From Bacteroidota bacterium (GTDB taxonomy: Bacteria; Bacteroidota; Ignavibacteria; Ignavibacteriales; Ignavibacteriaceae), in the NCBI GenBank assembly GCA_021824565.1, contig JAKAKL010000001.1, forward strand, positions 1-36,204: a stretch of DNA of 36,204 bases. Direction: 5' to 3'. A program made the translations under genes and the position numbers. Numbering within the stretch: position 1 is the first letter of the stretch; every line of letters begins with the position of its first letter. The notes beneath the pieces were generated by a model. The model was given only the letters and a program-made list of their open reading frames with translations, ran no database searches and was not told the origin of the DNA. Shown in pieces: positions 19,464 through 25,942 of this stretch.

Positions 19464-20591
19464 TTATTTTCTTATTTTTCTAATTTCAATCTCGCCATTT
19501 ATAGTTGAAAGATTTATTCTCACTCCGCCTCCATTTAACTGATATTCTGCTTTCTGTTCGTTAGAGTATTTATTAGCGCTAAATTCTTTTGCAGGAAAAT
19601 CTGAGGTAATCATTTTGTCATCTTCATCGCCGCTGCCAATTGATTTTGCATAAATATTTATTTTCAAGTTAGGATCGACGAGAAGTTTGATGCCGCCGTT
19701 CATTGTAGAAATACTGCTGCTTTTATTACCAGCTGATTTTAGTTCTACATAAATATCGCCGCTCATCGTTTCTGTTTTTATTGAGCCGTAAATATTATGC
19801 AGTTCAATATCTCCGCCTTTGGTTTCAGCATCAATTAAATCGGAAGCTCCATTCAGTTTTATATCACCGCCGTTAGTTTCAATATTGGCGCTGCCAGCAA
19901 TTTTCAGAATACTAATGCTTCCGCCGAGGGTCATAATGTCAGCGCTGCCGCCGATATTGTGTATTGAAATATCGCCGCCGTTGGTTTTTACATCCGCATT
20001 TCTTCCGACATCTTTCATCACTATGTTTCCGCCAAGTGTGTTAACGTCGCATTTGCCGCTGATATTTCCAGTGTGAATCTCTCCGCCGTTTGTTGACAGA
20101 ACTGCGTCGCCAATAATATTAGAAGTTAAAATATTTCCGCCGAAAGTTTTAACATTTACATAACCGTTAATATTCTCCAGCGATATATTCCCTCCGTCAG
20201 TAGAAGCCTGAAAATTTCCTTTTAATGAACTTAAGAGTTTGACATCCCCTTGAAGAGTTTTTATATAAACATTAAAACTTAATGGAACAGTTATCCTAAT
20301 ATCAGAATTGCCTCTGCTTGCATTTGTATTGTTCTTTACATTTATAGTATTACCTGACTGGCTTAACTCAAAAGGAACCGGCTCGTCTTCGTCAACGTCT
20401 TCAGCTTTAACAGCTACTTCATTTTTGTCCCACGTTAATACTTTAACGCTGCCTACTAATAATGTAACGTTGATCTGCCCGCCGCTGTTTGCTTTTACCG
20501 ACCTTACACCGTTAATATTATCTGTCCCTTGCGCATTGATTGTCAGCGTCGAGGCGCATAATAAAATTGATAAATATTTTATTGCTTTCAT
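19464..20591 (-). CDS. DUF4097-type exported beta-solenoid protein
   Basis: A 375-residue protein with a signal peptide (cut near A20, TINA before QGTD). From about residue 132 it has eight tandem 18-residue repeats of the form GG(N/D)IxLxNIxGxxxVxT, the pattern of a DUF4097 putative-adhesin beta-solenoid. The repeats alternate in type (see findings). It is the third gene of an ECF sigma/anti-sigma operon: its ATG overlaps the anti-sigma stop by 4 bases (ATGA), implying translational coupling. DUF4097 proteins commonly accompany such cassettes; their biochemical job is not established. It is probably periplasmic or surface exposed. Confidence 0.88.
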   Translation of the reverse strand: MKAIKYLSILLCASTLTINAQGTDNINGVRSVKANSGGQINVTLLVGSVKVLTWDKNEVAVKAEDVDEDEPVPFELSQSGNTINVKNNTNASRGNSDIRITVPLSFNVYIKTLQGDVKLLSSLKGNFQASTDGGNISLENINGYVNVKTFGGNILTSNIIGDAVLSTNGGEIHTGNISGKCDVNTLGGNIVMKDVGRNADVKTNGGDISIHNIGGSADIMTLGGSISILKIAGSANIETNGGDIKLNGASDLIDAETKGGDIELHNIYGSIKTETMSGDIYVELKSAGNKSSSISTMNGGIKLLVDPNLKINIYAKSIGSGDEDDKMITSDFPAKEFSANKYSNEQKAEYQLNGGGVRINLSTINGEIEIRKIRK

Positions 20592-21535
20592 TGTATATTA
20601 TCCTCCTTTAACAAAGAAGCAGCCCGGATGCGGACATACTGGTTCTCGTCATCCTTCGCTTTTTGATTTAACACATTTATTGTTTCTTGATTTATTTCGC
20701 TGCCGTTAGACTTAACTGAAGCAAGCACATTAATTGCCGTAACCCGCATTCCGGAATTCCTATCGTGCTGAAGGACATAAAGCAAAGCCTCGTTTATATC
20801 ATTACCGAAAGGCAGATTTACTAGAGCCTTCAAGGCTTCCATGCGAACAGCAGGATTATTATCATATTTCATAGCAGTGATTAATGAAGCCCTAACCTTA
20901 GGGTTTACTTTTGCATTATCAGAAGTTTGATTGGCAAGCAGGTTAGCAGTCTGAATTCGTGTGCCTGGATTTTTTTCATTCACTAATGCTTCAGCTAAAA
21001 TTTTTTGAATAGCCGGATTGTTCAAATCGCCTTTCATGACTACTTCATTTGTCGCATCAAAAGAAAATTCTATTTGACTATTGCTAGTATCATTTTTTAT
21101 TATCCTCACATTAGTTATGCGCGCATTGCCGGCAGGATTATTTGCTAAACCGTGATTGGAAAATTTCCCCGGAGAAAAAACGAAATACCCGATTGATAAT
21201 CCTACAAGCAGTGAAAAAGCGCCGGCTAAAATCGGTGTGCGGTATATTCTGAAATTTCTACCGCTGAAATTCTTCACTTTCTGAAAAATTGATTGTCTTG
21301 AAAGTTCATAGTTGAGATTATCTTTAAATTGTCCGCGCGCTTCGGAAAGAAATTCATCATCAATATTTGTTTTTTCTTTTTCATTTATCTTAGAATAGAA
21401 CTTCGTCAGCCTGTCATATTCATGCTGACATTCGCTGCATTCAAGAAGATGCTTGTGAAGCTTTTCAAGTTCATTATCCGTCAGCTCATTCGTCAGAGCG
21501 AGCTGAATTAATTCTTTAAATTTATCGTGTTCCAT
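20588..21535 (-). CDS. Zinc-finger anti-sigma factor with C-terminal HEAT repeats
   Basis: A 315-residue membrane protein. The N-terminal cytoplasmic ZAS domain has H29-x3-C33-x2-C36, the zinc motif that holds ECF sigma factors. One transmembrane helix spans about 101-120. The periplasmic part has an unassigned segment followed by HEAT-like helical repeats (about 180-315; repeated pattern NPxxRxxAxxxL, for example NPAVRMEALKAL and NSGMRVTAINVL). It lies 9 bp after the sigma gene with an AAGGAG site and overlaps the DUF4097 gene by 4 bp. The inferred role is to sequester the upstream sigma factor until a periplasmic signal, possibly protein binding to the HEAT region, releases it. Confidence 0.88.
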   Translation of the reverse strand: MEHDKFKELIQLALTNELTDNELEKLHKHLLECSECQHEYDRLTKFYSKINEKEKTNIDDEFLSEARGQFKDNLNYELSRQSIFQKVKNFSGRNFRIYRTPILAGAFSLLVGLSIGYFVFSPGKFSNHGLANNPAGNARITNVRIIKNDTSNSQIEFSFDATNEVVMKGDLNNPAIQKILAEALVNEKNPGTRIQTANLLANQTSDNAKVNPKVRASLITAMKYDNNPAVRMEALKALVNLPFGNDINEALLYVLQHDRNSGMRVTAINVLASVKSNGSEINQETINVLNQKAKDDENQYVRIRAASLLKEDNIQ

Positions 21536-21544
21536 CTTTTCTCC

Positions 21545-22123
21545 TTAACCAACTAAATCTTTCAAATGTTCACGCATTCTTTGCGTAGCCATAAATAAAT
21601 AATTCTTTACAGTCCCTTCGGTACAATTCATAATAGAGGCTATCTCTTTTATTTTCAGTTCTTGAAAATGTTTCAAAGTAAAAACCAATTTCTGCTGCGG
21701 CGAAAGTTTTTCCAATCCTTTTTCAATATTTGTTTGGATATCCGAACTTAGAGCTTCTTCGTCGGCGTTTATATCACCGGCGATGGTTTCCGCAAAAGAT
21801 TTTTCCGAACCGTCTTCGTCCTCGATATTTTCATCAAGCGAAGCGTAAGAATATTTTTTCCTTTTCGCGCGATAAGTAAGACAGACATTTGCAGTTATCC
21901 TGTAAAGCCATGTAGAGAACTCGCTTTTAAATTGGAATTTTTCAATTGATCTAAAAACTCTGATAAAAACTTCTTGATAAATATCTTTTGCATCTTCTCT
22001 ATTATTTATATACGAATAAGCAATAGCAAGAACATTTTTATCATAACTGTATATCAGCCTCTCGAAAGACGCTCTGTCTCCCTTCTGCGCTGATATTATC
22101 AAATTATTTTCTTCCGGTGTCAT
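21545..22123 (-). CDS. RNA polymerase ECF-type sigma factor (RpoE-like)
   Basis: A 192-residue group IV sigma factor. Region 2 covers about residues 20-90, including DAKDIYQEVFIRVF (core binding) and STWLYRITAN (-10 recognition). Region 4 covers about 130-185, with the helix-turn-helix LKIKEIASIMNCTEGTVKNYL (21 positions, about 152-172) for -35 recognition. The linker is acidic. It heads the sigma/anti-sigma/DUF4097 operon. A matching ECF-type promoter lies just upstream (22146-22172), suggesting autoregulation. It is divergent from the DUF5916 gene. Confidence 0.93.
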   Translation of the reverse strand: MTPEENNLIISAQKGDRASFERLIYSYDKNVLAIAYSYINNREDAKDIYQEVFIRVFRSIEKFQFKSEFSTWLYRITANVCLTYRAKRKKYSYASLDENIEDEDGSEKSFAETIAGDINADEEALSSDIQTNIEKGLEKLSPQQKLVFTLKHFQELKIKEIASIMNCTEGTVKNYLFMATQRMREHLKDLVG

Positions 22124-22145
22124 AATTTTTTTTCATTCTAAGATG

Positions 22146-22172
22146 TTAGACCTAATAATATAAAAAAGGTTG
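22146..22172 (-). promoter_or_regulatory. ECF-type promoter of the sigma operon
   Basis: On the minus strand, CAACCTT (22166-22172) and GTCTAA (22146-22151) with a 14-nt spacer. It resembles the E. coli sigma-E pair GGAACTT/TCTAA at the same geometry. The -10 lies 22 nt before the sigma ATG. A near-identical pair faces the other way at 22204-22231. Confidence 0.75.
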
Positions 22173-22203
22173 TGGGCATATTAAAAAAAATTTTAATTCA
22201 TAC

Positions 22204-22231
22204 CAACCTTTTTAAAAAAGCTTTAGTCTAA
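22204..22231 (+). promoter_or_regulatory. ECF-type promoter of the DUF5916 gene
   Basis: On the plus strand, CAACCTT (22204-22210) and GTCTAA (22226-22231) with a 15-nt spacer, 23-32 nt before the possible start codons. Both hexamers are identical to those of the divergent sigma-operon promoter, including the T run after the -35. Confidence 0.75.
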
Positions 22232-22254
22232 AGTTTTAGGAAAAAATTTAATGA

Positions 22255-24912
22255 GTGAAATTCATGACGTTTAAAAAGATACTTTTTTATTTTTTATTAT
22301 TGTGCAGTGCATCTTTGATTAAAGCCTCTGTTCCCGGGGATAAATCAAAAATAATTGTTTTTGCAACTAAGATTAATCAGCCAATTATAATAGACGGAGC
22401 TCTTGATGATGCAGCATGGCAAAAGGCAAAGGTAATATCAAATTTCATTCAGAGAGATCCGCTTGAAGGACAAGCCGCTACTGAAAAAACCGAAGTGCGT
22501 ATTTTGTACGACGACAAAGCAATTTATATCGGAGCGCGCATGTTCGATCCATCTCCGGATTCAATCGTAAAAAATTTAGCTAGACGCGATGTTGATATAA
22601 ACTCAGACTTGTTTGAAGTATTCTTCGATCCATATAATGATTTAAGAACAGGGTTTTATTTTGGCGTTAACGCTGCCGGCACTTTGTACGACGGAACTTT
22701 ATATAACGACTCATGGAATGATAATTCATGGGACGGCGTGTGGGAAGGAAAAGTAAGTATTGACAAAAACGGGTGGACAGCGGAAATTAAAATCCCTTTT
22801 TCACAGCTAAGATTTAATGCCAAAGAAAACGATAATGTTTGGGGAATAGATTTTGAGAGAATAATTGCAAGAAAACATGAAACAGACTATCTCGTTTATA
22901 TTCCGAAGACCAGTAATGCATTTGTTTCCAAGTTTGCAGAATTACAAGGAATAAAAAATATAAATCCTCCAGATGATATTGAGTTTCTTCCATACGTGAC
23001 TACCAAAGCGGAATACATGGATGCGGGCAGCGGCAATCCGTTTAACAATGGTTCCGCCTATTCACCAAGTATCGGCGCTGACTTCAAAATGGGTGTCGGA
23101 TCAAATTTAACTTTAAACGCTACTGTAAACCCAGACTTCGGACAGGTAGAAATTGATCCCGCTGTAATTAACCTTAGCGACGTTGAAACATATTTTAATG
23201 AGAAGCGTCCCTTCTTCGTTGAAGGCTCCAATATTTTCGAGTTCGGAAGAGGCGGTGTCACTGACTACTGGAATTTCAACTGGTGGGAACCAACTTTCTT
23301 TTACAGCAGAAGGATTGGAAGAGCACCGGAGGGATCAGTCCCAAGCGCGGACTTTGTCGATGAGCCGGCAGGCACCCATATAATCGGGGCTGCAAAACTT
23401 TCCGGCAAGTTAGATGGAAACTGGAATGTTGGAATTATTCAAGCTTTGACTTCAAGAGAAAATGCTAACTATCAAATAAGCGGTCAAAAATATAATATTG
23501 AAGTTGAACCGCCTACCTATTACGGTGTGGCTCGCATTCAAAAAGTAATGAACGATGGTCATCAAGGCATAGGAATAATTACAACTTTTACAAATCGCTT
23601 TCTAAGAGATCAGAACTTAAAAGATCAGCTTAATGGAAATGCTTTAGTAACCGGAATAGATGGATGGACTTATTTAGATACAACAGGGACCTGGGTTGTA
23701 AACGGCTGGCTCGGCTCAAGCATAGTTCACGGTGATTCAACGCAGATGATTAACTTGCAAACCGGTCCGCATCATTATTTTCAAAGACCTGACTCAAAGC
23801 TTTTACACGTAGATAGTTTGGCAAATTCATTGTCAGGATATGCAGGAAGATTTGTCATAAGCAAACAAAAAGGAAATTGGGGCGTCAATTCTGCAATCGG
23901 CTTTATCAGCCCTGGTTTTGAAGTTAATGATCTTGGATTTCTGCCGTTGTCCGATATTATAAACACACATTTTGCAAGCTGGTACAGCTGGACTGAGCCT
24001 ACAAAATTATATCGAAGTGCAACAATTGGCGGAGCAATCTTTCGTACTTACGATTACGAAGGCGAAATTACTTGGGAAGGAGTTTTTCAAAATGGCAGCG
24101 TACAGTTTCTCAATTATTACGGAATGAATTGGGATTTTGCTTATAATCCGCAAACTATTAATATTAGAGCAACAAGAGGCGGACCTTCTATGATTAATCC
24201 GGAAGGCTACCAGGTAGATTTAAGCTTAGGCTCAGACTCGAGAAATACCTGGGTAATATCTGCTTCGAGCGGAACATACTGGACACATTTTTCAAATCAA
24301 TGGTATATTAATAGTGAACTAGATTTAAATCCTTCTTCAAATATTTCTTTAAGCTTTATTCCCGAACTAGATGGATATATCGACAACGCCATGTGGGTAA
24401 ACTCTTATTCTGATAAATATGATGCAGCTACATACGGGACGAGATATGTCTTTGCTGCATTCCATCAAACCACTCTGTCTGCAGGAATTAGATTGAACTG
24501 GACTTTTACTCCGAAGTTAAGCTTACAATTATATGCCCAGCCATTGATATCCGCCGGTAATTACAGCAGCTTTAAAGAACTCGCTCAACCAGGAACTTAT
24601 TCCTTTAATATTTATGGAATTGGCAAATCAACATTTAACAGCAACACATACTCAGTCGATCCCGATGGAAATGGTCCTGCTCCATCTTTTATTATTGACA
24701 ACCCGGACTTCAACTTCGTTTCACTTCGCGGCAACGCAGTGCTGCGATGGGAATATCTGCCCGGCTCTGTAGTGTATTTCGTTTGGACTCAGACCAGATC
24801 GGATCAAGAAGTGCTTGGGCAATTCCAGTTCAATCATTCATTTGATAGAATTTGGCTGCTTCATCCTGACAATACCTTTATAGTTAAGTTTTCTTACTGG
24901 TTTAATATTTAA
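22255..24912 (+). CDS. DUF5916 outer-membrane protein with N-terminal carbohydrate-binding-like domain
   Basis: An 885-residue exported protein. Signal peptide is followed by a CBM9/DOMON-like beta-sandwich (about 35-230, IIIDGALDDAAWQKA to WGIDFERI), a conserved linker with NPDFGQVEIDPAVINLSD and FFVEGSNIFEFG (about 285-325), and a long aromatic-rich C-terminal barrel to residue 885. This is the DUF5916 architecture common in Bacteroidota; the ligand is unknown, although sugar or peptide binding is often supposed. The first in-frame start is GTG at 22255; ATG at 22264 also gives a good signal peptide, and the AGGA site at 22238 favours the GTG by spacing. Probably transcribed by the divergently encoded ECF sigma factor. 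Confidence 0.88.
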   Translation: MKFMTFKKILFYFLLLCSASLIKASVPGDKSKIIVFATKINQPIIIDGALDDAAWQKAKVISNFIQRDPLEGQAATEKTEVRILYDDKAIYIGARMFDPSPDSIVKNLARRDVDINSDLFEVFFDPYNDLRTGFYFGVNAAGTLYDGTLYNDSWNDNSWDGVWEGKVSIDKNGWTAEIKIPFSQLRFNAKENDNVWGIDFERIIARKHETDYLVYIPKTSNAFVSKFAELQGIKNINPPDDIEFLPYVTTKAEYMDAGSGNPFNNGSAYSPSIGADFKMGVGSNLTLNATVNPDFGQVEIDPAVINLSDVETYFNEKRPFFVEGSNIFEFGRGGVTDYWNFNWWEPTFFYSRRIGRAPEGSVPSADFVDEPAGTHIIGAAKLSGKLDGNWNVGIIQALTSRENANYQISGQKYNIEVEPPTYYGVARIQKVMNDGHQGIGIITTFTNRFLRDQNLKDQLNGNALVTGIDGWTYLDTTGTWVVNGWLGSSIVHGDSTQMINLQTGPHHYFQRPDSKLLHVDSLANSLSGYAGRFVISKQKGNWGVNSAIGFISPGFEVNDLGFLPLSDIINTHFASWYSWTEPTKLYRSATIGGAIFRTYDYEGEITWEGVFQNGSVQFLNYYGMNWDFAYNPQTINIRATRGGPSMINPEGYQVDLSLGSDSRNTWVISASSGTYWTHFSNQWYINSELDLNPSSNISLSFIPELDGYIDNAMWVNSYSDKYDAATYGTRYVFAAFHQTTLSAGIRLNWTFTPKLSLQLYAQPLISAGNYSSFKELAQPGTYSFNIYGIGKSTFNSNTYSVDPDGNGPAPSFIIDNPDFNFVSLRGNAVLRWEYLPGSVVYFVWTQTRSDQEVLGQFQFNHSFDRIWLLHPDNTFIVKFSYWFNI

Positions 24913-24994: not shown

Positions 24995-25942
24995 ATGGAC
25001 AAGCATAAAGCGCCGCAAAATAGAACAATTATACTCACTGAAGAAGAGAAAGAACATTATTTAAATAACATCGCTCATTTGTCTCAATTAAAAAAGAGAA
25101 TTCCTTTAAATACTATAATTCAGGGCGATGTATTTGAAGCCGCAAAATTAATTCCAAAGAAATCGGTCGATTTATTATTTCTCGATCCGCCTTATAACCT
25201 CAGCAAACAGTTTCACGGAAATAATTTTATTAAAACTTCGGAAGAAAAATATATTAAGTGGTTTCAATCGTGGTTTGACTTGCTACTGCCGTCATTAAAA
25301 GAAACCGCTTCAGTTTATATATGCTGCGATTGGCAAACTTCTGTCTCCGTATATGAAGCAATAAAAGAAAAATTGATAATTAGAAATCGCATAACGTGGG
25401 AAAGAGAAAAAGGCAGAGGAGCAAAAACTAATTTTAAAAACTCTCATGAAGATATCTGGTTCGCGACAAAAAGTAAAAAATATAAATTCAATATCGACGC
25501 TGTAAAATTAAAGCGGAAAGTAATTGCGCCTTATCGTGAAAACGGGCAGCCGAAAGATTGGGAAGAAAGCGGCAACGGTAATTTCAGACTCACTCATCCG
25601 GGCAATTTATGGACTGATATCAGCATCCCATTCTGGAGCATGCCTGAGAATACCGATCATCCCACTCAAAAGCCGGAAAAGCTTCTTGCTAAGTTAATTC
25701 TCGCAAGCACAGACAATGGAGATACAGTTTTAGATCCTTTTGCAGGCTCAGGTACAACAGCAGTCGTATCAAAAAAATTAGATAGAAATTTTATTGCAGT
25801 AGAATTGTCTGAAAAATATGTTTGCCTCGCTAATAAAAGGTTGGATATTGCGGAAAGAGACAAAGACATTCAAGGATACTCAGGCGGAGTCTTTTGGGAA
25901 AGAAATACTTTATCCTTACAAAAAAGAACCGGGACAAAATAA
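24995..25942 (+). CDS. Site-specific DNA methyltransferase, beta class
   Basis: A 315-residue amino-methyltransferase. Catalytic motif IV DPPYNLS begins at 64 and the AdoMet-binding motif I DPFAGSGTT at 247-255, with the target-recognition region between them. That order defines the beta class (N6-adenine or N4-cytosine); DPPY favours either, with adenine more common in this subfamily. No restriction endonuclease or specificity subunit is adjacent, so it appears to be an orphan. Its recognition sequence cannot be read from this. It is monocistronic, with a weak ribosome binding site. It is convergent with the SPOR gene across an inverted repeat. Confidence 0.88.
   Translation: MDKHKAPQNRTIILTEEEKEHYLNNIAHLSQLKKRIPLNTIIQGDVFEAAKLIPKKSVDLLFLDPPYNLSKQFHGNNFIKTSEEKYIKWFQSWFDLLLPSLKETASVYICCDWQTSVSVYEAIKEKLIIRNRITWEREKGRGAKTNFKNSHEDIWFATKSKKYKFNIDAVKLKRKVIAPYRENGQPKDWEESGNGNFRLTHPGNLWTDISIPFWSMPENTDHPTQKPEKLLAKLILASTDNGDTVLDPFAGSGTTAVVSKKLDRNFIAVELSEKYVCLANKRLDIAERDKDIQGYSGGVFWERNTLSLQKRTGTK

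Follow-up and report, generated by a model that had tools for sequence, protein, structure and literature searches.

The DNA analyzed here, which we call the window, is a stretch of 36,204 bases that forms one of the 148 contigs of a 4,594,733-base assembly, and the named records that come closest to it are MAGs under the labels Bacteroidetes, Ignavibacteriaceae and Ignavibacteriales. By sequence and open reading frames, a gap of 131 bases (22124-22254), of the size and between the genes that the original prediction had given, separates a sigma factor gene on the minus strand (21545-22123) from a DUF5916 gene on the plus strand (22255-24912). The sigma factor has 192 residues and contains only the sigma-2 and sigma-4 domains of an ECF protein (PF04542 at residues 26-90, PF08281 at 133-182). 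Directly 3' of it lies a gene for a zf-HC2 protein with C-terminal HEAT repeats (20588-21535, minus strand). Zinc anti-sigma (ZAS) factors are marked by an H-x3-C-x2-C motif close to the N terminus and by a membrane segment. Both are found in the window protein, as HLLECSEC at residue 29 and as a single hydrophobic segment at approximately residues 102-120 (peak at 102); among its relatives the motif occurs in 45 of 67 and the segment in 65 of 67, and a homologue adjoins the sigma gene in all 30 family loci scanned. The protein is thus the probable membrane-bound anti-sigma factor of this sigma, as predicted from its sequence, and the position of the cysteine motif relative to the one hydrophobic segment would place the HEAT repeats outside the cytoplasm. 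The third gene of the operon (19464-20591, minus strand) encodes a product that itself matched no Pfam family in our scan, and is described as toastrack (DUF4097)-like through one of the three relatives scanned (DUF4097 at 1.3e-18 in L263; the relative in L280 yielded only a weak LiaF-like_C match and that in L293 nothing).

The gene on the other side of the gap, which may start at GTG 22255 or at ATG 22264, encodes a protein with CBM9_1 and DUF5916 domains that is, by Pfam and by its structural model, a probable outer-membrane barrel. In the AlphaFold model (pLDDT 63.6, pTM 0.54) the CBM9 domain is clear on fold comparison (7nwn, Z 17.1, rmsd 3.0 over 171 residues). The C-terminal region is closest to outer-membrane barrels at Z of about 11-13 but with rmsd of 4-10 in a modest model, which is compatible with the outer-membrane label; a sequence search of the PDB with this protein returned nothing credible, its one match having E 0.11. 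A gene for an N6/N4 DNA methyltransferase (24995-25942, plus strand) follows 82 bp 3' of the DUF5916 gene on the same strand and may belong to the same transcript.

The gap contains two copies of one bipartite element. On the minus strand, CAACCTT-N14-GTCTAA occupies 22146-22172, with a candidate -35 box at 22166-22172, identified by sequence and family conservation, and a -10 box at 22146-22151 preceded by G. On the plus strand, CAACCTT-N15-GTCTAA occupies 22204-22231, with the -35 box at 22204-22210, identified by sequence and genus orthologues, and the -10 box at 22226-22231 preceded by A. The distance from the -10-like box to the start codon is 22 nt for the ATG of the sigma gene and 23 nt for the GTG of the DUF5916 gene (32 nt for ATG 22264). 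The pattern CAACCTT-N(12-17)-GTCTAA has exactly two matches on both strands of the 36,204 bases, compared with a mean of 0.00 in 100 dinucleotide-preserving shuffles of the window, so that the pair of boxes on each strand, the spacings of 14 and 15 nt and the absence of a further properly spaced copy from the window were all accurate as first described. A scan of the rest of the assembly revealed one further exact copy, at C108:509-536. At the genome scale the count itself proves nothing, since 80 family genomes contain 85 matches versus 83 for the reversed control pattern, and a relaxed scan with three mismatches yields noise (80 matches versus 146 for the reversed control); the evidence lies in the location of the copies.

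The two -35 regions (CAACCTTTTT / AAAAAGGTTG) are perfect inverted repeats of each other over 10 nt, at a distance of 31 nt, and such a pair could in principle be an operator for a dimeric regulator rather than parts of two promoters. This reading is most improbable: among 30 family sigma loci two exact copies occur in the window locus only (the second copy in G013 has one mismatch), other family loci have at most one copy, DUF5916 genes on other contigs have a single copy each, and for 47 of 49 sigma genes the copy is paired, within two mismatches, with GTCTAA at a spacing of 14 or 15 nt.

We examined 49 sigma genes or fragments in the family panel of 80 genomes. The element upstream of them is exact in 43 cases and has one mismatch in two, two mismatches in two and three mismatches in two (L036 and L147). 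Across the 47 promoters with at most two mismatches, GTC is preceded by A in 27, by G in 20 and never by C, the spacer is 15 nt in 32 and 14 nt in 15, and the element mostly lies 20-24 nt 5' of the start. Orthologues from other families show the same picture (exact in 19 of 25, with one mismatch in three, two in two and three in one). For the named sigma loci, a set that overlaps the others, 45 of 80 have an exact element and 69 of 80 have one with at most two mismatches, and the exact copies include those in records of a Caldithrix (L282) and of a KSB1 (L289); eight of the 11 named loci that lack an element at this level are 27-38% identical and probably non-orthologous. In the class panel, 61 of 124 sigma genes have no exact motif within 150 nt upstream, near-matches having been read for some of them. 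The predicted autoregulation is borne out at the sequence level, the element being kept 5' of the sigma gene in relatives.

The same element is kept upstream of DUF5916 genes. Among seven DUF5916 orthologues of the genus (at least 66% identity, the window genome included), it is exact in five and has one mismatch in two. Five of the seven are located on contigs other than that of the sigma gene, where the element lies approximately 18-40 nt 5' of the gene. The divergent arrangement was seen in two genomes only, the window genome and G013, whose sigma is 83% identical; G013 keeps both elements, the DUF5916 one having GTCAAA in place of GTCTAA, and its DUF5916 gene lies more than 200 bp further from the element, with a leader of 242 nt. 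Loss of the motif in a relative with the same gene pair, an outcome that the original prediction had named as counting against it, is thus not seen in the sole other pair examined. The altered -10 box and the longer leader in G013 would fit a reading in which only the sigma promoter works and the DUF5916 element is a decayed or chance copy. We regard this as very unlikely, because orthologues on other contigs keep the element just before their own gene and because in other genera it stands before further DUF5916 genes.

In 18 other family genomes DUF5916 lies inside the sigma operon, 16 of them by position on one contig (the sigma gene of G060 being a fragment), while in G033 and G028 it is assigned to the operon since a toastrack gene precedes it on a broken contig. 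Within two mismatches, no separate element precedes the in-operon copies that were read. The orthologues on other contigs and the operon copies together make the link between sigma and DUF5916 independent of adjacency in the window. Among non-operon homologues, an element with no more than one mismatch is present in 15 of 27 cases in sigma-bearing genomes versus 0 of 11 in sigma-less genomes (Fisher p=0.002, for genomes that share ancestry); out of 1500 random 450-nt sequences none reached one mismatch and 34 reached two. This count excludes the sigma-operon copies, those with a missing 5' end (G036, G038, G056 and G026), and three matches of 33-36% identity (G018:C24, G016:C12 and G066:C104), the first two of which have four mismatches each. 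Among the 27 homologues, 12 have more than one mismatch and eight more than two (two copies in G079, one of them 55% identical, and those in G071:C19, G064:C61, G037, G072, G035:C35 and G053), and the link is incomplete. The predicted direct control of DUF5916 is likewise borne out at the sequence level by the retention of the element 5' of this gene in relatives.

On the scale of the class, we searched 391 genomes, 121 with the sigma and 270 without, for CAACCTT-N13/14-(A/G)GTCTAA. The 135 copies comprise 63 within 150 nt 5' of a sigma orthologue, 55 at non-sigma sites in sigma-bearing genomes, and 17 in genomes scored as sigma-less. The motif is present in 75 of 121 sigma-bearing versus 17 of 270 other genomes (Fisher p=1e-31, the genomes sharing ancestry), and copies beyond the sigma's own are found in 45 of 121 versus 17 of 270. 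The reversed control (91 copies) does not track the sigma: it turns up in 26 of the 121 genomes with the sigma and in 49 of the 270 without (p=0.49). Two of the 17 genomes, G060 and G066, hold a partial sigma gene, so the truly sigma-less genomes with the motif number 15.

The third exact copy in the window genome (L003:509-536, equal to G000:C108:509-536) precedes an operon of a MoxR-type AAA ATPase and DUF58. A promoter of the form CAACATTTATAAGTTTG....CGTCTAA is found at this position in many family genomes, with or without the sigma. The family has 69 MoxR-type ATPase genes, many with guessed starts, and of the 67 upstream regions read 52 have the element with at most two mismatches. Genomes with the sigma account for 34 of these (out of 42 regions) and genomes without it for 18 (out of 25), and the element is exact in sigma-less G015, G020 and G024. 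The base before GTC in these 52 elements is C in 48 and T in four. We considered the MoxR operon as a member of the regulon of this sigma and rejected it, given the retention of the element in sigma-less genomes and the C before GTC. The MoxR promoter probably belongs to another ECF sigma, as judged from these sequences, although the window's sigma may cross-read it. Since the MoxR type has C and persists without the sigma, while the sigma type has A or G, the promoter code probably includes the base before GTC. The genome scan for CAACCTT-N14-15-GTCTAA that had been proposed admits the MoxR site, most likely the promoter of another ECF sigma, and needs the extra base.

A second related element, TAACCTTATAATTAATTCTTAGTCTAA, lies before a second DUF5916 gene of the window genome (L395:1501-1527, G000:C20:156661-156687), a paralogue of 36% identity. 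The form TAACC...AGTC(T/A)AA precedes relatives of this paralogue in the genus members G013, G014, G015, G016, G018 and G020, of which G014, G015 and G020 are sigma-less, suggesting that another ECF sigma controls the DUF5916 paralogues. When one mismatch was allowed and A or G required before GTC, the scan gained this site (TAACCTT...AGTCTAA), the MoxR site, and two sites inside open frames (L396 and L397).

The window genome has 18 Sigma70_r2 matches, 17 of them above the cut-off, and conserved promoters similar to ours stand before the MoxR gene and the DUF5916 paralogue (TAACC....AGTCTAA) in sigma-less genomes as well, so the elements in the gap might be ECF promoters that are read chiefly by an ECF paralogue of the adjacent sigma within that cell. 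We consider this unlikely. Across the class the motif tracks the adjacent sigma, as do the upstream regions of the DUF5916 homologues; the 16 other sigma-like genes of the genome that were examined have no upstream match better than three mismatches; and the base before GTC, A or G in 47 of 47 sigma promoters versus C in 48 of 52 MoxR promoters, sets the two types apart.

The genes behind further sites were read for 50 of the 55 non-sigma copies in sigma-bearing genomes, 40 of them fetched and ten in the family. According to Pfam, the 40 fetched sites precede 15 DUF5916, six DUF4097, three DUF2807, one MacB/FtsX, three PDZ, one PadR, one DUF2268 protease and one other sigma gene, as well as five genes of HlyD-type adaptors, the latter found in five genomes that belong to a single other family of the class, f5 (L426, L430, L432, L433 and L434); at four sites there is no family or no gene behind. 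Besides DUF5916, most of these appear to be envelope genes. Starts are uncertain at eight of the 40 sites, where the downstream frame is open across the motif. Among the ten in-family sites five precede DUF5916 (the window site and those of G017, G018, G071 and G073) and one DUF4097, those of G033 and G034 lie inside open frames, and those of G075 and G076 lie 270 nt before an apparent ABC ATPase gene, judged by eye. We also read 41 loci of the family with exact sites classed as non-sigma; L128 among them turned out to be a fragment of a sigma gene. MoxR genes follow at 12, DUF5916 at six and DUF4097 at one, and at least 11 of the 41 look like chance occurrences, falling in open frames of more than 150 codons that have none of these genes behind them.

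Because many relatives have this element in front of genes of the same kinds, the two elements in the gap are very probably promoters read by the adjacent sigma. We therefore interpret the gap as two divergent promoters of one ECF sigma, from which the sigma operon and DUF5916 would be transcribed when the sigma is released (probability about 0.9). On an envelope signal the membrane-bound anti-sigma factor would let the sigma go, and RNA polymerase with this sigma would fire both ways: leftward through the sigma, anti-sigma and toastrack-like genes, which would combine positive autoregulation with an inherent negative feedback, and rightward through the gene of the CBM9-domain, predicted outer-membrane barrel protein. 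Release would thus raise the operon and DUF5916 together, presumably in the service of envelope maintenance. The promoter code, as read from these sequences, is CAACCTT(TT)-N13/14-(A/G)GTCTAA. The mechanism would be an ordinary one, an ECF sigma with its own promoters, soundly predicted from one site and with other genomes in agreement.

The early hallmarks of ECF promoters were AAC in the -35 box and CGT in the -10 box (PMC8103513). CAACCTT contains the first; the second is absent, A or G preceding GTC in 47 of 47 promoters. Membership in the ECF sigmas (group IV) stands, since, according to the same review, the defining features were later narrowed to the two domains (PMC8103513). Like E. 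coli sigma-E (RpoE), as described there, the window's sigma is a two-domain ECF protein with an adjacent gene for a membrane anti-sigma factor, a predicted autoregulated promoter and envelope targets (PMC8103513). It differs from sigma-E in the -35 box (CAACCTT versus GGAACTT), in the HEAT repeats of the anti-sigma factor and in its predicted targets, which are DUF5916 and toastrack genes. The relatives uphold the ECF promoter reading, and the likeness to sigma-E originally drawn has to be amended: the -35 box is at least as close to that of Bacillus subtilis SigW, which is quoted as ATTGAAACCTTT and which shares AACCTTT (PMC8103513). SigW is also the best NCBIfam profile for the sigma, at scores below the equivalog cut-offs (123.7 versus 209 bits for NF007223, 107.6 versus 243.1 for TIGR02948). 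The comparison with SigW covered the -35 box and the profile, and the relatives here, unlike SigW, are Gram-negative. Toastrack (DUF4097/DUF2807/DUF2154) neighbourhoods of the extended PSP response have been linked to envelope-stress regulation, and PadR regulators as well as a sigma factor in operonic linkage are mentioned there (PMC11237479). In contrast to those neighbourhoods, the commonest partner here is DUF5916, and no PspA or PspC was found among the proteins scanned.

Taken across the class, we favor, with some reservation, the view that these loci belong to an envelope-stress regulon of Ignavibacteria-type bacteria, with one ECF sigma, a HEAT-repeat anti-sigma factor and a DUF5916 outer-membrane protein as its core output, reached by three routes (the same operon, a divergent promoter or a distant promoter). 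Genes of the toastrack, HlyD/MacB and PDZ types would be additional outputs. The literature searched contained no regulon with DUF5916 as main output, no paper naming DUF5916, and none on an ECF sigma factor in Ignavibacterium. If true, this would be the first regulatory role for DUF5916, as an effector or a sensor of the state of the outer membrane; its tie to an autoregulated ECF sigma and to toastrack and HlyD/MacB-type genes would give it a testable envelope role in a little-studied bacterial group, known mostly from metagenomes, where sequence is enough to recognize the promoter in many genomes. Within one cell, two types of ECF promoter seem to be told apart by one base in front of the -10 box, so that promoter specificity can be tested directly.

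A separate observation concerns G060 (C112:32845-33565; L307, L152), where the sigma gene behind the promoter is truncated and carries an internal stop. No anti-sigma match was found at this locus; next come the remnant of a toastrack gene and, after it, a DUF5916 frame that is still open. This is apparently a decayed operon that has retained its promoter and its output.
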